DNA from: Lacibacter cauensis
GTDB taxonomy: Bacteria; Bacteroidota; Bacteroidia; Chitinophagales; Chitinophagaceae
Direction: 5' to 3'
DNA length: 64,000 nucleotides
Assembly (NCBI RefSeq): GCF_007830055.1
Contig: NZ_VLLE01000002.1
Location: 1,003,953-1,067,952, forward strand
This document shows, one piece after another, positions 46,824 through 52,064 of this stretch. The notes beneath the pieces are model-generated. The model saw nothing but the letters and a program-made list of their open reading frames with translations. It had not been told where the DNA came from and did not search any database. Both the position numbers and the translations under genes were made by a program. Each line of letters begins with the position of its first letter. Within the stretch, counting starts at the first letter, position 1.

Positions 46824-46842
46824 TAAGAACGCAAATCACTAT

Positions 46843-46880
46843 AACAAAAAAGGTTGCCAATATTGGCAACCTTTTTTGTT
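46843..46880. terminator. Bidirectional terminator between TonB receptor and esterase genes
   Basis: Long palindrome with core AAGGTTGCCAA/TTGGCAACCTT and flanking A6/T6 tracts, so both transcripts end in a U-tract. The strict loop is only two bases, so the real loop probably opens a few pairs. Confidence 0.85.
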
Positions 46881-46892
46881 ATAAACAGTTTT

Positions 46893-47699
46893 TTATTTTC
46901 CCCATCCCCACTCTAAAAAAACGGGAAATGCCTTAGTCCATGTTGGCACATCGTGTGTCCCATCTTCCAGCTCAAGATATTTGATTGATTCTGCAGGATA
47001 GCCCTTGCGCTTCAGTTCCATCATTAAGTCCAGTGCATCATCAATTGAATCGATAACACCATTGTTGTTGCGATCAGATTTTTCATCTAACAAACCTGTT
47101 TGAAAAAAGAATTTCAGCCACGGCGATGCTTTACCCGCACGTACCTGGTTGTGCATGATGCGGTCTGCTTCATCTGTATAACCATCATCATATCCTTTTT
47201 GCCGCCACCACAACGAGCCGGAGAACACGCCCACTTTAGTAAACTCATGTGCATGGTTCCAAACAATATCCAATGCCATTAATCCCCCAAGCGAAAAACC
47301 GGCATACGCCTTTTCTTTAAACTGGGGAACGTTATACTTTTTACGGAGATAAGGCAGTAGTTCATTAAACACAAACTTCGTATACAAACCGGCTTTTGCA
47401 CCACGCCCCAGGTAATCGGCCTGGCTTGCAATACCGTATTCCATTTTACGATCTGGGCCACAATGAATACCTACACAAAGCAGCGGTTGCATCTTTTGTT
47501 GCTCGTATAAGTTTTCAAGTATCTCTGTAAAGGGCATCTTCAGCAAGTCCTGCCCGTCGTTAATAAGCAGTAAACTAATTTCAGTAGAGTCAACAACGGG
47601 AGACGGCAAATAAAAATCAACCGTTACTTCCCGTTCCAGGTATTCCGATAACAGCTGCTCAGATTCAAACACCACCTGCATTAATTTCGTATTAAGCAT
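46893..47699 (-). CDS. Alpha/beta-hydrolase esterase (PF00756-type) with a calcium-binding-like loop
   Basis: About 268 residues from the ATG at 47699 (MLNTKLMQVVFE), chosen because the TTG at 47708 sits inside the promoter element. The nucleophile elbow is YAGFSLGGLMAL and the catalytic histidine lies in LEDGTHDVPTW, both as in esterase D/Fes-like enzymes. Between them is DRNNNGVIDSID, an EF-hand-like loop with Asp/Asn ligands at positions 1, 3, 5 and 9. No signal peptide is present. It diverges from the ATP-grasp ligase gene across 137 bases and is part of the amidoligase neighbourhood by position, perhaps releasing or trimming the product. Confidence 0.84.
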   Translation of the reverse strand: MLNTKLMQVVFESEQLLSEYLEREVTVDFYLPSPVVDSTEISLLLINDGQDLLKMPFTEILENLYEQQKMQPLLCVGIHCGPDRKMEYGIASQADYLGRGAKAGLYTKFVFNELLPYLRKKYNVPQFKEKAYAGFSLGGLMALDIVWNHAHEFTKVGVFSGSLWWRQKGYDDGYTDEADRIMHNQVRAGKASPWLKFFFQTGLLDEKSDRNNNGVIDSIDDALDLMMELKRKGYPAESIKYLELEDGTHDVPTWTKAFPVFLEWGWGK

Positions 47700-47705
47700 A
47701 AACGC

Positions 47706-47713
47706 CAAAAATA
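47706..47713 (-). promoter_or_regulatory. -7 promoter element of the esterase gene
   Basis: Minus-strand TATTTTTG, six bases before the ATG at 47699, so the mRNA is probably leaderless. No clear -33 element. Confidence 0.5.
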
Positions 47714-47836
47714 AGGAAATGCATTAAAATATTTTTCATCATTACCCGATGTTACAGAATTGTGTGCTATATTAATGCAGTGAACAAACGCTTTGCAAAG
47801 CCTTGTACACACATCACCTACATTAAATAAAAAAGT

Positions 47837-48790
47837 ATGAAAAAGATCGGCATCTTACACGGAAAAGAACGCTCTTTCCCCACTGCATTTGTTGAACGTA
47901 TTAACAGTAAAAACATAGCCGGTATTATGGCCGAACCTGTTCGCATTGATAAGGTAAAGCAGGGCGTTAATAATGGTTATGCTGTTATTGTCGATCGCAT
48001 TTCGCAGGATGTGCCGCATTACCGTGCGTATTTAAAGAACGAAGCCATTACGGGTACTGCTGTTATTAATAATCCGTTTTGGTGGAGTGCCGATGATAAG
48101 TTTTTTAATAACTGCCTTGCAACTAAGATCAATGTGCCTGTTCCGAAAACGGTGATCCTTCCGTCGAAAGAACGCCCCGATGATACCAGCGATGCATCGT
48201 TCAGCAATCTTGCATACCCGATGGATTGGGAAGGCATGTTCAACTACATTGGTTTTCCTGCATACATGAAACCATTTGCAGGTGGTGGCTGGAAGAATGT
48301 ATACAAACTGAATAATGCTGCAGACTTTTTTGATAAGCATGCCGAAACAGGTCAGCTGGTAATGCTACTGCAGGAAGAAATTGTATTTGAAGAATATTAC
48401 CGTTGTTATTGCATAGGTCGTAAGCATGTACGCATTATGAGTTACGAACCACGCAATCCGCATCATTTACGTTATGTGGCCGACTTTCAACCATCGGCTG
48501 AAAAGCTGCAGATGATGACGGATATTGTACTGCGTATTAACAATTATCTTGGTTACGATTTTAATACCGTTGAACTTGCTTTGCGTGATGGTGTGCCGTA
48601 TGCAATTGACTTTTGCAACCCTGCCCCCGATGCAGACCTGGCAAGTGTTGGCCAGGAAAATTTTGATTGGGTGGTTGAAGCTGCAGCCAGCTATGCTATT
48701 GAACGGGCACTTGAACACAAAGAAGGAGAAGATAATTTAACCTGGGGCGAATATGTAAAACGTAGTGCGAATAAACAACCCTTGTATTAA
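47837..48790 (+). CDS. ATP-grasp ligase-like protein (amidoligase cluster)
   Basis: 317 residues, related to ATP-grasp ligases that join a carboxylate to an amine through an acyl phosphate. The N-terminal domain starts KKIGILHGKERSFP. The ATP-binding part contains YPMDWEGMFNYIGFPAYMKP and FAGGGWKNVYKL, where a lysine and a glycine-rich loop would hold ATP. The metal-binding stretch is VELALRDGVPYAIDFCNPAPD, with the Glu, Asp and Asn of the ATP-grasp active site. It precedes the GCS2-type ligase by 19 bases, so both are made from one transcript. The substrates are unknown; a role in making a short peptide or amide is inferred from the cluster. Confidence 0.83.
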   Translation: MKKIGILHGKERSFPTAFVERINSKNIAGIMAEPVRIDKVKQGVNNGYAVIVDRISQDVPHYRAYLKNEAITGTAVINNPFWWSADDKFFNNCLATKINVPVPKTVILPSKERPDDTSDASFSNLAYPMDWEGMFNYIGFPAYMKPFAGGGWKNVYKLNNAADFFDKHAETGQLVMLLQEEIVFEEYYRCYCIGRKHVRIMSYEPRNPHHLRYVADFQPSAEKLQMMTDIVLRINNYLGYDFNTVELALRDGVPYAIDFCNPAPDADLASVGQENFDWVVEAAASYAIERALEHKEGEDNLTWGEYVKRSANKQPLY

Positions 48791-48809
48791 TAACGATAAG
48801 CGATAAAGA

Positions 48810-49922
48810 ATGGCGAACATCAATTATAAACAGTTTACAATCGGCGTAGAAGAAGAGTACATGGTGTACGATCCCGTAACAAGGGAACTTAAAAGCCATG
48901 AACAAAAAATTGTAAGCGAAGGGCAAAAAGTGATTAAGGATAAAGTAAAAGCAGAAATGCACCAGGCTGTGGTAGAAGTTGGAACAGACATTTGCCACAA
49001 CATTGAAGATGCATACAAAGATGTTTCGTTACTGCGCAAAACAATACAAGGTATTGCAGGTAATCTTGGTTTAGCTGTAGGTGCAAGCGGTACCCATCCG
49101 TTCAGTCATTGGCAGGATCAGTTAATTACCGATCATGTACGCTACAACCAGATCGTAAACGAATTACAGGAAGCTGCAAGAAGTAATCTCATTTTTGGTT
49201 TACATGTACATGTAGGAATGGAAAACAGGAAGATGGCGATTCATTTAGCCAACAGTGCACGCTATTTTCTGCCGCATGTGTATGCTCTCAGCACCAACTC
49301 TCCTTTTTGGGAAGGAAGAATGACGGGATACAAATCGTTCCGCACAAAAGTGTTTGACAAGTTTCCTCGTACAGGCATTCCCGAATCTTTCGACAGTATT
49401 GAAGCATACGAAAACTATGTAGCATTGCTGATTAAAACAAACTGTATTGATAATGCAAAGAAGATCTGGTGGGATCTGCGTGTGCATCCATTCTTTAACA
49501 CTATTGAATTTCGTATTTGTGATGTACCGATGACGGTGATGGAAACCATTGCTATTACAGGTTTGTTCCAGGCTATTACTGCTAAACTGTATAAGCTGCG
49601 TAACCAGAACATGAACTTCATTCAATACCAACGTGCACTCATCAATGAAAATAAATGGAGAGCGAGCCGTTATGGTATTGATGGCTACCTGATTGACTTT
49701 GGTAAAGAAGAAGAAACCAATACACGTGCGCTCATTTATGAACTACTCGACTTTGTAGATGATGTAGTGGATGAATTAGGCTGTCGTGCTGCCATCAACT
49801 ATATTCCTGAAATGTTGAACAAAGGAACCGGTGCCGACAGACAGCTGAAAGTATATGAAGAAACAAAAAGCCTGCCTTCTGTAGTAGATTATATTGGTGC
49901 GGAATTTTTAAGTGGCGTATAA
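48810..49922 (+). CDS. Glutamate-cysteine ligase family 2 (YbdK-like) carboxylate-amine ligase
   Basis: 370 residues of the GCS2 family, which contains plant-type gamma-glutamylcysteine ligases and YbdK. It ligates an amine to a carboxylate, often of glutamate, with ATP. The N-terminal signature FTIGVEEEYMVYD carries the acidic residues that bind magnesium; FGLHVHVGMENRKMAI and GASGTHPFSHW line the active site; and IEFRICDVPMTVMETIAI is conserved. The usual length is about 370. Its partner is the ATP-grasp protein directly upstream (19-base gap). The two convergent genes beyond the terminator (second ATP-grasp and class I amidotransferase) complete the cluster. No gshB or known glutathione gene is adjacent. 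Confidence 0.87.
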   Translation: MANINYKQFTIGVEEEYMVYDPVTRELKSHEQKIVSEGQKVIKDKVKAEMHQAVVEVGTDICHNIEDAYKDVSLLRKTIQGIAGNLGLAVGASGTHPFSHWQDQLITDHVRYNQIVNELQEAARSNLIFGLHVHVGMENRKMAIHLANSARYFLPHVYALSTNSPFWEGRMTGYKSFRTKVFDKFPRTGIPESFDSIEAYENYVALLIKTNCIDNAKKIWWDLRVHPFFNTIEFRICDVPMTVMETIAITGLFQAITAKLYKLRNQNMNFIQYQRALINENKWRASRYGIDGYLIDFGKEEETNTRALIYELLDFVDDVVDELGCRAAINYIPEMLNKGTGADRQLKVYEETKSLPSVVDYIGAEFLSGV

Positions 49923-49945
49923 ACGAAATAATAAAATCATTGTAA

Positions 49946-49980
49946 TAAAAAAGGGGTACAGAGATTGTACCCCTTTTTTA
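49946..49980. terminator. Bidirectional terminator inside the amidoligase cluster
   Basis: Stem TAAAAAAGGGGTACA/TGTACCCCTTTTTTA with a five-base loop GAGAT between two convergent genes. It overlaps the stop codon of the minus-strand ATP-grasp gene (49978-49980). Confidence 0.88.
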
Positions 49981-51171
49981 TTTTTCAACAAACGCTACAC
50001 TACCTCCTACCCAGGTTTTGTCTTTATTGTAACGCACGCCAATCATTTTACCTTTGCTCATGCGTGCAAGATTAATGGCTGCATGTGGACGCTCATCGCC
50101 ATCGGGCCATACATACATAATACGAATCTCCACTTTTGCCGGGCCATCGGGTGTCTCCACAACATCAGCATACTGCACTTTGCGTTGCAGAATAAAATTT
50201 TCAGGATCAGCAATTGCATCAATGTCTTCCTGTGTTACATCAATGATTACGCCTTGGCCGGCAAATGAAAACAACGGCTTTAATACGTATTTCGACAAAT
50301 CATCAGGCAGCTGTTTTATTTCATTGAGGAAAAATGTTTCCGGAACATAAGGATGATCAATAAACGGCAATGTGAATTTGCTGATGCGATAGAACCAGTT
50401 GGGATGCGGCAACCATTCCACATCAAGATCCTGTGTAATATCAACAACATCTCCCAGCTTTTCTTTATTCGCTTTCAGGTCATCAAAGATGATGCGGTTG
50501 TAAATTCGTTTTACTTCCGTTTTCACTCCGTCTTTCATGTAATACAACTTGCGTCCTTCTTGTATGAGTTTGGTTAAGCAAACAGCTTCAATACCAATGT
50601 AATCTTTGGTGCAGGAAAAATCAATGCGTGTTTTCTGTTCTTCAGGTTTTATTTCAAGCAGAATAACATTTTCTGTTGCATGCGAACCAATGATGAGTTT
50701 ACGCAACAGCTCAATATAAGTTTCCTTTGTATAACCATTTAAGAACTGGCTGTAATTGGAAGGAATATCGAAATGACGCTGCACAACTTCGGGATAATAT
50801 ACCTGGAAGCCAAACAAAGTTGGGAAACCCTGCATTTCAATTAACTGCGGCTCCAACTCGCCGGCTTCGTTTTGACAAACACCAAAATCAAACGCAATCA
50901 TGTGCGAATGTTTGCTTTCATTCGGCACTTTCTCTCCTGCAGGAATGGAACGTTCCGTTAACGAAAGAAAAGAAGGTTCGCAAATAACATCTACAATACG
51001 TTCGCATGCATCGATCATCTTTTGCGCAAACGTCTTGTCTACAAATACCGGCGTTTCACTTACACGAAACTCAATATCGCCGGGGTGAAGGCTATGCAGA
51101 TCTTTTAAGAAGGCTTCATACTTTTCAACTGTAAATGCATTGTTGAATGCTTTGCGTATTGCAGGAACCAT
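49978..51171 (-). CDS. ATP-grasp-like protein, second ligase of the cluster
   Basis: 397 residues. The C-terminal half carries KPLFSFAGQGVIIDVTQED, which resembles the ATP-grasp lysine and glycine-rich loop, and RIMYVWPDGDERPHAAINLARM, which looks like its metal-binding region (acidic residues and an Asn). The N-terminal half (EFRVSETPVFVDKTFAQKMI, EPQLIEMQGFPTLFGFQVYY) is not familiar to me; the motif order suggests a rearranged ATP-grasp of the glutathionylspermidine-synthetase kind, but I cannot be sure. It is probably cytoplasmic. It is made after the class I amidotransferase gene on the same strand (53-base gap). The fold assignment is likely, the substrate unknown. Confidence 0.72.
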   Translation of the reverse strand: MVPAIRKAFNNAFTVEKYEAFLKDLHSLHPGDIEFRVSETPVFVDKTFAQKMIDACERIVDVICEPSFLSLTERSIPAGEKVPNESKHSHMIAFDFGVCQNEAGELEPQLIEMQGFPTLFGFQVYYPEVVQRHFDIPSNYSQFLNGYTKETYIELLRKLIIGSHATENVILLEIKPEEQKTRIDFSCTKDYIGIEAVCLTKLIQEGRKLYYMKDGVKTEVKRIYNRIIFDDLKANKEKLGDVVDITQDLDVEWLPHPNWFYRISKFTLPFIDHPYVPETFFLNEIKQLPDDLSKYVLKPLFSFAGQGVIIDVTQEDIDAIADPENFILQRKVQYADVVETPDGPAKVEIRIMYVWPDGDERPHAAINLARMSKGKMIGVRYNKDKTWVGGSVAFVEK

Positions 51172-51224
51172 AGAAGATGTTTTGTCTTCTAAAAGTATCT
51201 GATTTTATTTACATAAGAAAGTGT

Positions 51225-52064
51225 TTAAACTTCTACTGTTTGCTGAGCAAAAACAGCACTGTGTAAAAAGTTCGGCAGTATGTGTGAGTAGGTATAAAGA
51301 ATTTTATCCGGATCTTCCAAATGCTCAATCATGCTCTTCCATTTTTCAAACCCGTGATTATCAATAACCGTTTTCTTTTTATCTTCTTTCTGCAGGTACA
51401 TGCTCATGCCAATTGCATCCGCTTCGGGATGAAACTGTGTGCCGATCATGTGTTGGTTAAAACGCACGCCCATAATTGCACGTTCGAACGGCACATGCGG
51501 ACGTTCCTTTTCAATACAGAGCAAAGAAGCACCGATCTGTTTCAGATATTTATGATCGGGCTGTATTACCTGGTAATCTCTGCTGTCCACAGCATAAAAC
51601 GGATCTTTCAATCCGCTGAATACAACCTCTTGTTCTACTCCTTCAATAATGTGAACAGGAAAAACACCAAAGGCTGTTGATTTACGGGCACACACGTTAC
51701 CGATTTTGAAGAAACGACAGGCTAACTGAAACGAATGACAAATGAAGAATACAGGTTTCTTTTTGCTGTTGAGCGGATTATCGTTCCATTTCTTCACTGA
51801 ATCAATCCAGTTGAAGAATGTATTCTCCCAATCTGTTCCTTCACTTTCCAAAGGGCTGCCCGGACCACCGGTAGAAATATAGAGGTCGTAAGACAAATCA
51901 GGAACCTGGCACTTACCACGTACATCAAATTCATCCCAACTCAAATCCAGTACATTGATGTCGGCAAAGCTGTTCAGTATTTCACGTATACAGCGCATGC
52001 CCTGGTTGGCAACGCCATCATACATATCCAATATTGCAACACGCACCTGTTTTACTTCTGCCAT
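51225..52064 (-). CDS. Class I glutamine amidotransferase-like protein
   Basis: About 279 residues from the ATG at 52064 (MAEVKQVRVAILDMYDG). The longer frame starts at a non-ATG codon before the TATTTTTG promoter element, so it is not the true start. The triad of class I amidotransferases is visible: Cys109 in FFICHSFQLACR, and His212 and Glu214 in GTQFHPEADAI. The usual glycine after the nucleophile is replaced by serine (CHSFQ). Such domains release ammonia from glutamine or cut gamma-glutamyl bonds. It precedes the second ATP-grasp gene and is probably the ammonia source or hydrolase of the cluster. Confidence 0.84.
   Translation of the reverse strand: MAEVKQVRVAILDMYDGVANQGMRCIREILNSFADINVLDLSWDEFDVRGKCQVPDLSYDLYISTGGPGSPLESEGTDWENTFFNWIDSVKKWNDNPLNSKKKPVFFICHSFQLACRFFKIGNVCARKSTAFGVFPVHIIEGVEQEVVFSGLKDPFYAVDSRDYQVIQPDHKYLKQIGASLLCIEKERPHVPFERAIMGVRFNQHMIGTQFHPEADAIGMSMYLQKEDKKKTVIDNHGFEKWKSMIEHLEDPDKILYTYSHILPNFLHSAVFAQQTVEV

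Follow-up and report, generated by a model that had tools for sequence, protein, structure and literature searches.

A conserved Bacteroidota gene module of stand-alone amidoligases that may build a small gamma-glutamyl peptide or amide

We analyzed a stretch of 64,000 nucleotides (the window) from the 4.9-Mb genome of the Chitinophagaceae member Lacibacter cauensis (contig NZ_VLLE01000002.1, positions 1,003,953 to 1,067,952), in which five genes, here termed g1 to g5, make up a cluster of putative amidoligases and hydrolases. All five open reading frames (ORFs) are intact. The first gene, g1 (46893-47708, minus strand), encodes an alpha/beta-hydrolase esterase of family PF00756; its ORF starts with TTG at 47708, an alternative ATG lies at 47699, and the gene is divergent from g2. 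The g2 gene (47837-48790, plus strand) encodes a RimK/LysX-like ATP-grasp ligase and is followed, after a gap of exactly the 19 bases given in the initial annotation, by g3 (48810-49922, plus strand), which encodes a GCS2/YbdK-family glutamate(carboxylate)-amine ligase. On the opposite strand are g4 (49978-51171, minus strand), for an ATP-grasp ligase resembling eukaryotic-type glutathione synthetase, GspS and YgiC, and g5 (51225-52064, minus strand), for a protein with the class I glutamine amidotransferase (GAT) fold that is a predicted amidase or peptidase; an upstream ATG extends the g5 ORF to 52109. Between the stop codons of the convergent g3 and g4 is a strong hairpin (49944-49982; -22.5 kcal/mol, z -6.3 by RNA folding) with A/T tracts on both flanks. 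This is probably a bidirectional terminator, which makes the sharing of one terminator by the two strands plausible, as had been proposed. A second bidirectional terminator hairpin (46840-46883), with a 20-pair stem, -28 kcal/mol and z -8.5, separates g1 from the upstream gene for an outer-membrane protein.

The five genes constitute one functional unit. Among 41 relatives, g2, g3, g4 and g5 were identified in 25, 26, 25 and 25 genomes, respectively, and the sets of genomes are nearly identical. The four genes are co-present even in five genomes (G016, G017, G018, G021 and G024) where they are scattered on the chromosome. The only two exceptions are G004, which is assembled in 800 contigs, and G023. 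In the latter, g5-g4 is intact, g3 is reported with an in-frame TAA, and g1, g2 and a second hydrolase (E2, described below) are absent; the module seems to be decaying in this genome. Three genomes (G002, G009 and G011) are from the same genus as the window.

The association extends across the phylum. In a sample of 297 Bacteroidota genomes, with weak distant matches excluded from the counts, all four genes occur in 50, g2, g3 and g4 in a further 34, and none in 190. The phi coefficients are 0.91 for g3 and g4 and 0.87 both for g2 and g3 and for g2 and g4, and g3 and g4 lie no more than 6 kb apart in 49 genomes. As shared ancestry inflates the Fisher p-values, the pattern within families weighs more than the phylum statistics. 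In a family of 30 genomes (f21), for example, g3, g4 and g5 are found in the same seven, g2 is found in six of these, and the remaining genomes have none of the four. Families f33 and f39, although heavily sampled, yielded no member of the module. The grouping of these gene types in the initial annotation is therefore borne out, as the genes co-occur in both genome sets to a degree that is not due to chance. The proposal thus withstood the refuting condition set out with it, which was a failure of the genes to co-occur in other genomes.

In distantly related genomes the genes form a compact operon on one strand, in the order E2-g2-g3-g5-g4 (eight loci, including L142-L145), often with g1 divergent in front. 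E2 encodes an alpha/beta hydrolase of approximately 236 residues. Chitinophagaceae loci (for example L032, L037, L038, L055, L062, L103 and L105) show intermediate arrangements between this single operon and the window, so the two-strand arrangement of the window is probably a derived, rearranged version. E2 is an operon member in most other lineages, making the earlier five-gene picture incomplete, and it tracks the module in 25 of the 41 relatives. Its membership is uncertain in the window's own genome, because the copy there lies away from the cluster (C3:663180-663896) and is only about 30% identical. Two variant operons were also identified. In one (L127-L136), g4 is absent and a circularly permuted ATP-grasp protein (PF14403) is encoded between g2 and g5, with another esterase in some loci; this protein aligns to g4 with an hhalign probability of 5%. 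In the other, from family f18 (L137-L139), the operon is g2-g5-g4 without g3, preceded by E2 in two of the three loci.

The assignment of g3 to the GCS2/YbdK carboxylate-amine ligases is clear from its sequence, and transfer of a gamma-glutamyl group to an amine, for instance cysteine, is its predicted activity. It matches PF04107 (GCS2) with an E-value of 1e-58 (199 bits, cut-off 21), the carboxylate-amine ligase model PRK13515 over its full length with 3e-156 (519.7 bits, cut-off 371), and the YbdK structure 1r8g with 2e-46. The glutamates of the GxEEE motif (E14-E16) are kept in all 52 sequences covering that region, and the residues of the HxH and E-x-R-x-x-D motifs (H132, H134, E233, R235 and D238) in 55 of 55. 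The protein thus resembles E. coli YbdK and EgtA. EgtA is an enzyme of the ergothioneine pathway; unlike in that context, no other ergothioneine-pathway genes were seen within the window. We know of no case in which YbdK works with RimK-like and GSS-like ligases.

The g2 protein is the most constant part of the module: of the 107 phylum genomes with at least one module gene, 104 have g2. It has no match in Pfam, and its match to the NCBIfam RimK family (TIGR00768; E 6e-6) scores 25.8 bits, far under the cut-off of 143.4. Its predicted structure is of moderate quality (predicted local distance difference test, pLDDT, 73). However, Foldseek relates the model to RimK, LysX/ArgX and the D-Ala-D-Ala ligases (Ddl) at E-values of about 1e-11, and the conserved ATP and Mg residues (K145, E246, D258 and N261) are invariant in 56 sequences. 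The protein shares its fold and a weak sequence similarity with the alpha-L-glutamate ligases RimK, LysX, ArgX and MptN. It differs from them in its low score against the family model and in having an IDFxNPAPD motif in place of the usual E-x-N.

The second ATP-grasp-like protein, g4, is invisible to curated family models: no match was found in Pfam or NCBIfam at an E-value of 0.01. A profile of 17 g4 sequences searched against the PDB gave a single meaningful match, to YgiC (7uk8; E 0.075), so that, within the PDB, the trace of sequence similarity to g4 is confined to the family of the YgiC/YjfC and GspS peptide-spermidine ligases, which have the same fold. In contrast, the AlphaFold (AF2) model is good (pLDDT 90, predicted template modelling score 0.89) and its Foldseek matches support the initial classification. 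They comprise a putative glutathionylspermidine synthase-like protein (3n6x; E 1.6e-14), yeast glutathione synthetase (1m0w; 1e-13), the E-64 ligase Cp1B (9cjn; 5e-12), YjfC (7uk6; 1e-10), human and plant glutathione synthetases, and YgiC. These fold relatives superimpose with template modelling scores of about 0.5-0.6 and are 11-16% identical to g4. Seven residues (D95, E112, Q114, R226, K298, R350 and R370) are invariant in 153 g4 sequences. In genome G164, g4 is in-frame with a sodium:solute symporter in an ORF of 867 residues (L163:3637-6240), which reflects either a fusion or a missing stop codon.

The GAT fold of g5 is well supported, with a match to PF00117 above the cut-off (E 2e-7) and a Cys-His-Glu triad (C109, H212 and E214) that is intact and invariant in 127 sequences. 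The nucleophile motif is FxICHSFQ and not the usual GxCxG. Five loci from genomes lacking g5 (L157, L158, L161, L162 and L175) have a gene for an M29-type metallopeptidase between g3 and g4, where g5 would otherwise be. Close orthologues of this gene, at least 59% identical, are found in six of 80 genomes searched, and all six have g2, g3 and g4 but not g5. For five of the six (G094, G132, G291, G295 and G311), either the locus itself or the coordinates place the gene between g3 and g4, while in G247 the gene lies elsewhere. Genomes carrying g5 have at most a distant M29 paralogue (26-31% identity). Because an M29-type metallopeptidase replaces the GAT-fold protein in these genomes, g5 is more likely a peptide or amide hydrolase than an ammonia donor. 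The initial classification as a class I glutamine amidotransferase thus holds for the fold but probably not for the function this name implies.

The g1 esterase matches PF00756 with an E-value of 7e-24, and Ser139 and His252 are invariant in its alignment. Orthologues (44-100% identity) are found in 22 of the 25 module-carrying relatives, in many loci divergent and beside g2.

The module encodes protein families that are either known or distant relatives of known families, and three of the proteins (g2, g3 and g4) are of the ATP-dependent C-N ligase type. No carrier or condensation domains were found with Pfam and NCBIfam models in the cluster or in the operons of the phylum genomes. The conservation together of several stand-alone C-N ligases without such domains identifies the module as an amidoligase pathway independent of non-ribosomal peptide synthetases, which is a known kind of system. 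For three ligase-type proteins in one unit, the best reading is the one first suggested, that a small peptide or amide is made step by step. We consider it moderately probable that this carrier-free, Bacteroidota-wide module builds a small cytoplasmic gamma-glutamyl peptide or amide.

GCS2 enzymes couple an amine to the gamma-carboxyl group of glutamate, and ATP-grasp enzymes of the RimK/LysX type attach amino acids. Glutathione synthetase, GspS and YgiC enzymes couple a short peptide, through its carboxyl end, to an amine. These precedents suggest the following scheme, in which the substrates, the product, the sequence of reactions and the direction in which g5 works are all inferred. The gamma-carboxyl of glutamate would be activated by g3 as an acyl phosphate and joined to an amine. 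A further amino acid would be ligated by g2, which is the module's hub. At its carboxyl end, the resulting peptide would then receive another amine through g4, much as glycine is added by glutathione synthetase and spermidine by YgiC and YjfC. As a putative thiol hydrolase similar to gamma-glutamyl peptidases or amidases, g5 may trim or recycle the peptide, a role suggested by the metallopeptidase that takes its place in some genomes. Finally, g1, and elsewhere E2, may cleave an ester or amide of a precursor or of the product.

Several observations weigh against this scheme. The g3 gene is missing in four f18 genomes (G076, G103, G197 and G217) and in nine genomes that have the variant without g4. 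As some operons lack g3, either the remaining genes can do without gamma-glutamylation by g3 or another enzyme supplies the glutamyl step. Similarly, only six of the 34 genomes that have g2, g3 and g4 without g5 contain the M29 substitute. The glycine-rich loop of g4 reads FSFAG where that of YgiC reads FSREG, and all 153 sequences have Ala or Ser at position 304; as the acidic loop residue of YgiC is absent, the metal site of g4 may differ from that of YgiC. Additionally, the mapped genes lie apart in the deep-branching families f38, f40, f43 and f44.

A close parallel is the biosynthesis of glutathione by a type-2 glutamate-cysteine ligase and a eukaryotic-type glutathione synthetase. The g3 protein belongs to the GCS2 family and g4 has the synthetase fold, and two ATP-dependent steps of these types would yield gamma-Glu-X-Y. 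However, the module also comprises g2 as a third ligase, two esterases and a hydrolase of either the GAT-fold or the M29 type, g4 is only distantly similar to the synthetases (identities as above), the host has a bacillithiol synthase, and any use of cysteine and glycine by the module is putative. A further possibility, which we advance tentatively, is that approximately one third of Bacteroidota make a previously undescribed glutathione-like gamma-glutamyl metabolite beside bacillithiol (a cofactor, metal ligand, polyamine conjugate or signal), using a g4 family outside Pfam and NCBIfam and interchangeable hydrolases. A similar combination of enzymes is said to have been described in 2009 by Iyer, Aravind and co-workers, who reportedly predicted operons for non-ribosomal amidoligases in which ATP-grasp and GCS2-type enzymes are associated with peptidases of unrelated folds.

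An alternative product is a polyamine conjugate similar to glutathionylspermidine. In this case g4 would be the ligase that joins peptide and spermidine, and either g5 or the M29 enzyme would be the corresponding amidase. The closest folds to g4 include the GspS-like 3n6x, YjfC and YgiC, and GspS-type enzymes are known with paired amidase activity. YgiC and YjfC are peptide-spermidine ligases according to the passage of PMC12568646 that cites Pederick 2023. However, glutathione synthetases and Cp1B score equally well against g4, so that the fold does not reveal the amine acceptor, and no polyamine gene was seen among the annotated flanking genes. The GspS-related ATP-grasp genes described in the literature are located in PspA-linked operons with polyamine genes (PMC11237479), a context unlike that of g4. 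We regard a polyamine conjugate as unlikely.

The resemblance of g2 to RimK and LysX/ArgX also raises the question of protein modification, in which g2 and the other ligases would attach a glutamyl or peptide tag that g5 or the M29 enzyme removes, as in RimK or pupylation systems. The pairing of a ligase with a hydrolase is characteristic of reversible tagging. However, the operons contain no conserved gene for a small carrier or target protein, the fold relatives of g4 use small peptides, and three ligases with separate acceptor classes are better suited to a small molecule. This makes protein modification distinctly unlikely.

The initial annotation considered that the cluster might supply a low-molecular-weight thiol, as no genes for one were visible. 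A replacement for a missing thiol is ruled out, because the bacillithiol synthase BshC is encoded in the same genome (G000:C2:1005797-1006903) and in 292 of the 297 phylum genomes, irrespective of the module. It would still be conceivable that g3 makes gamma-Glu-Cys and that g4 or g2 extends it to a glutathione-like thiol additional to bacillithiol. Both enzyme classes of glutathione synthesis in plants and other eukaryotes are represented by g3 and g4, and the PF00756 esterases include S-formylglutathione hydrolases. In contrast, the assumption that a thiol is missing does not hold, and bacillithiol or N-methyl-bacillithiol has been found chemically in Chlorobiaceae and one Bacteroidetes strain and is predicted for other Bacteroidetes (PMC6282198). 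The absence of the module from 190 of the 297 genomes also argues against a general cofactor. An additional thiol is therefore improbable.

The same low probability applies to g5 as a true glutamine amidotransferase subunit, supplying ammonia for a primary amide formed by one of the ligases. The class I fold and the intact triad would allow this, but an M29-type metallopeptidase that replaces g5 is unable to release ammonia from glutamine, 34 genomes hold g2 to g4 without g5, and the nucleophile motif is atypical. That unrelated housekeeping genes are neighbors by chance, as the two-strand layout and the ordinary surrounding genes (ribBA, a TonB-type outer-membrane protein gene, a TPR protein gene and glgB by Pfam and NCBIfam) might suggest, is ruled out by the phylum-wide co-occurrence, the operons and the substitutions, and its probability is close to nil.

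A literature search found no description of the cluster. The combination of genes, its conservation across the phylum, the unmodelled ligase g4 and the exchange of g5 for a metallopeptidase were likewise absent from the literature searched, although an earlier mention is possible in the 2009 survey of amidoligase neighborhoods by Iyer et al., which was outside the reach of the search. About one third of the sampled Bacteroidota genomes carry this conserved and patchily distributed multi-ligase module, whose parts resemble glutathione biosynthesis yet occur in organisms that have bacillithiol synthase. Identifying the product would put a name to a widespread metabolite, assign a function to the g2 and g4 families, for which there are no curated models, and explain why a metallopeptidase of the M29 type and a GAT-fold hydrolase are interchangeable. 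The best 80 matches listed in a genome-collection scan with g4 are close relatives throughout. The module is directly testable because cultured species carry g4, among the matches listed Niastella yeongjuensis, Sediminibacterium goheungense and Foetidibacter luteolus.

A mobile or phage origin was rejected, as a search of 72,556 records of plasmids and 50,697 of phages found no relative of g4, and g2, g4 and g5 have no PHROGs match. A defense system was rejected as well, there being no PADLOC match. Genes that neighbor the module at the family level in Chitinophagaceae, encoding a porin, a nucleoside phosphorylase, an M42 peptidase, a LuxE-like protein and HlyD/efflux proteins, represent ordinary synteny and were set aside because they vary by lineage while g2 to g5 persist.

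Other neighbors recur more selectively. A gene for a PF07969 metal-dependent amidohydrolase is the immediate neighbor of g4 in three deep-branching genomes (L147, L149 and L152) and lies upstream of g5-g4 in about a dozen Chitinophagaceae loci (among them L029, L037 and L174); the genes of the two groups are 33% identical, and the amidohydrolase is a possible further member of the pathway. A further PF13535-type ATP-grasp ligase is encoded beside the module in six loci (L122, L127, L128, L139, L145 and L170), from genomes that belong to different families. Finally, approximately 20 Chitinophagaceae loci, including L036-L042, have a small cupin gene of about 105 codons 3' of g4.

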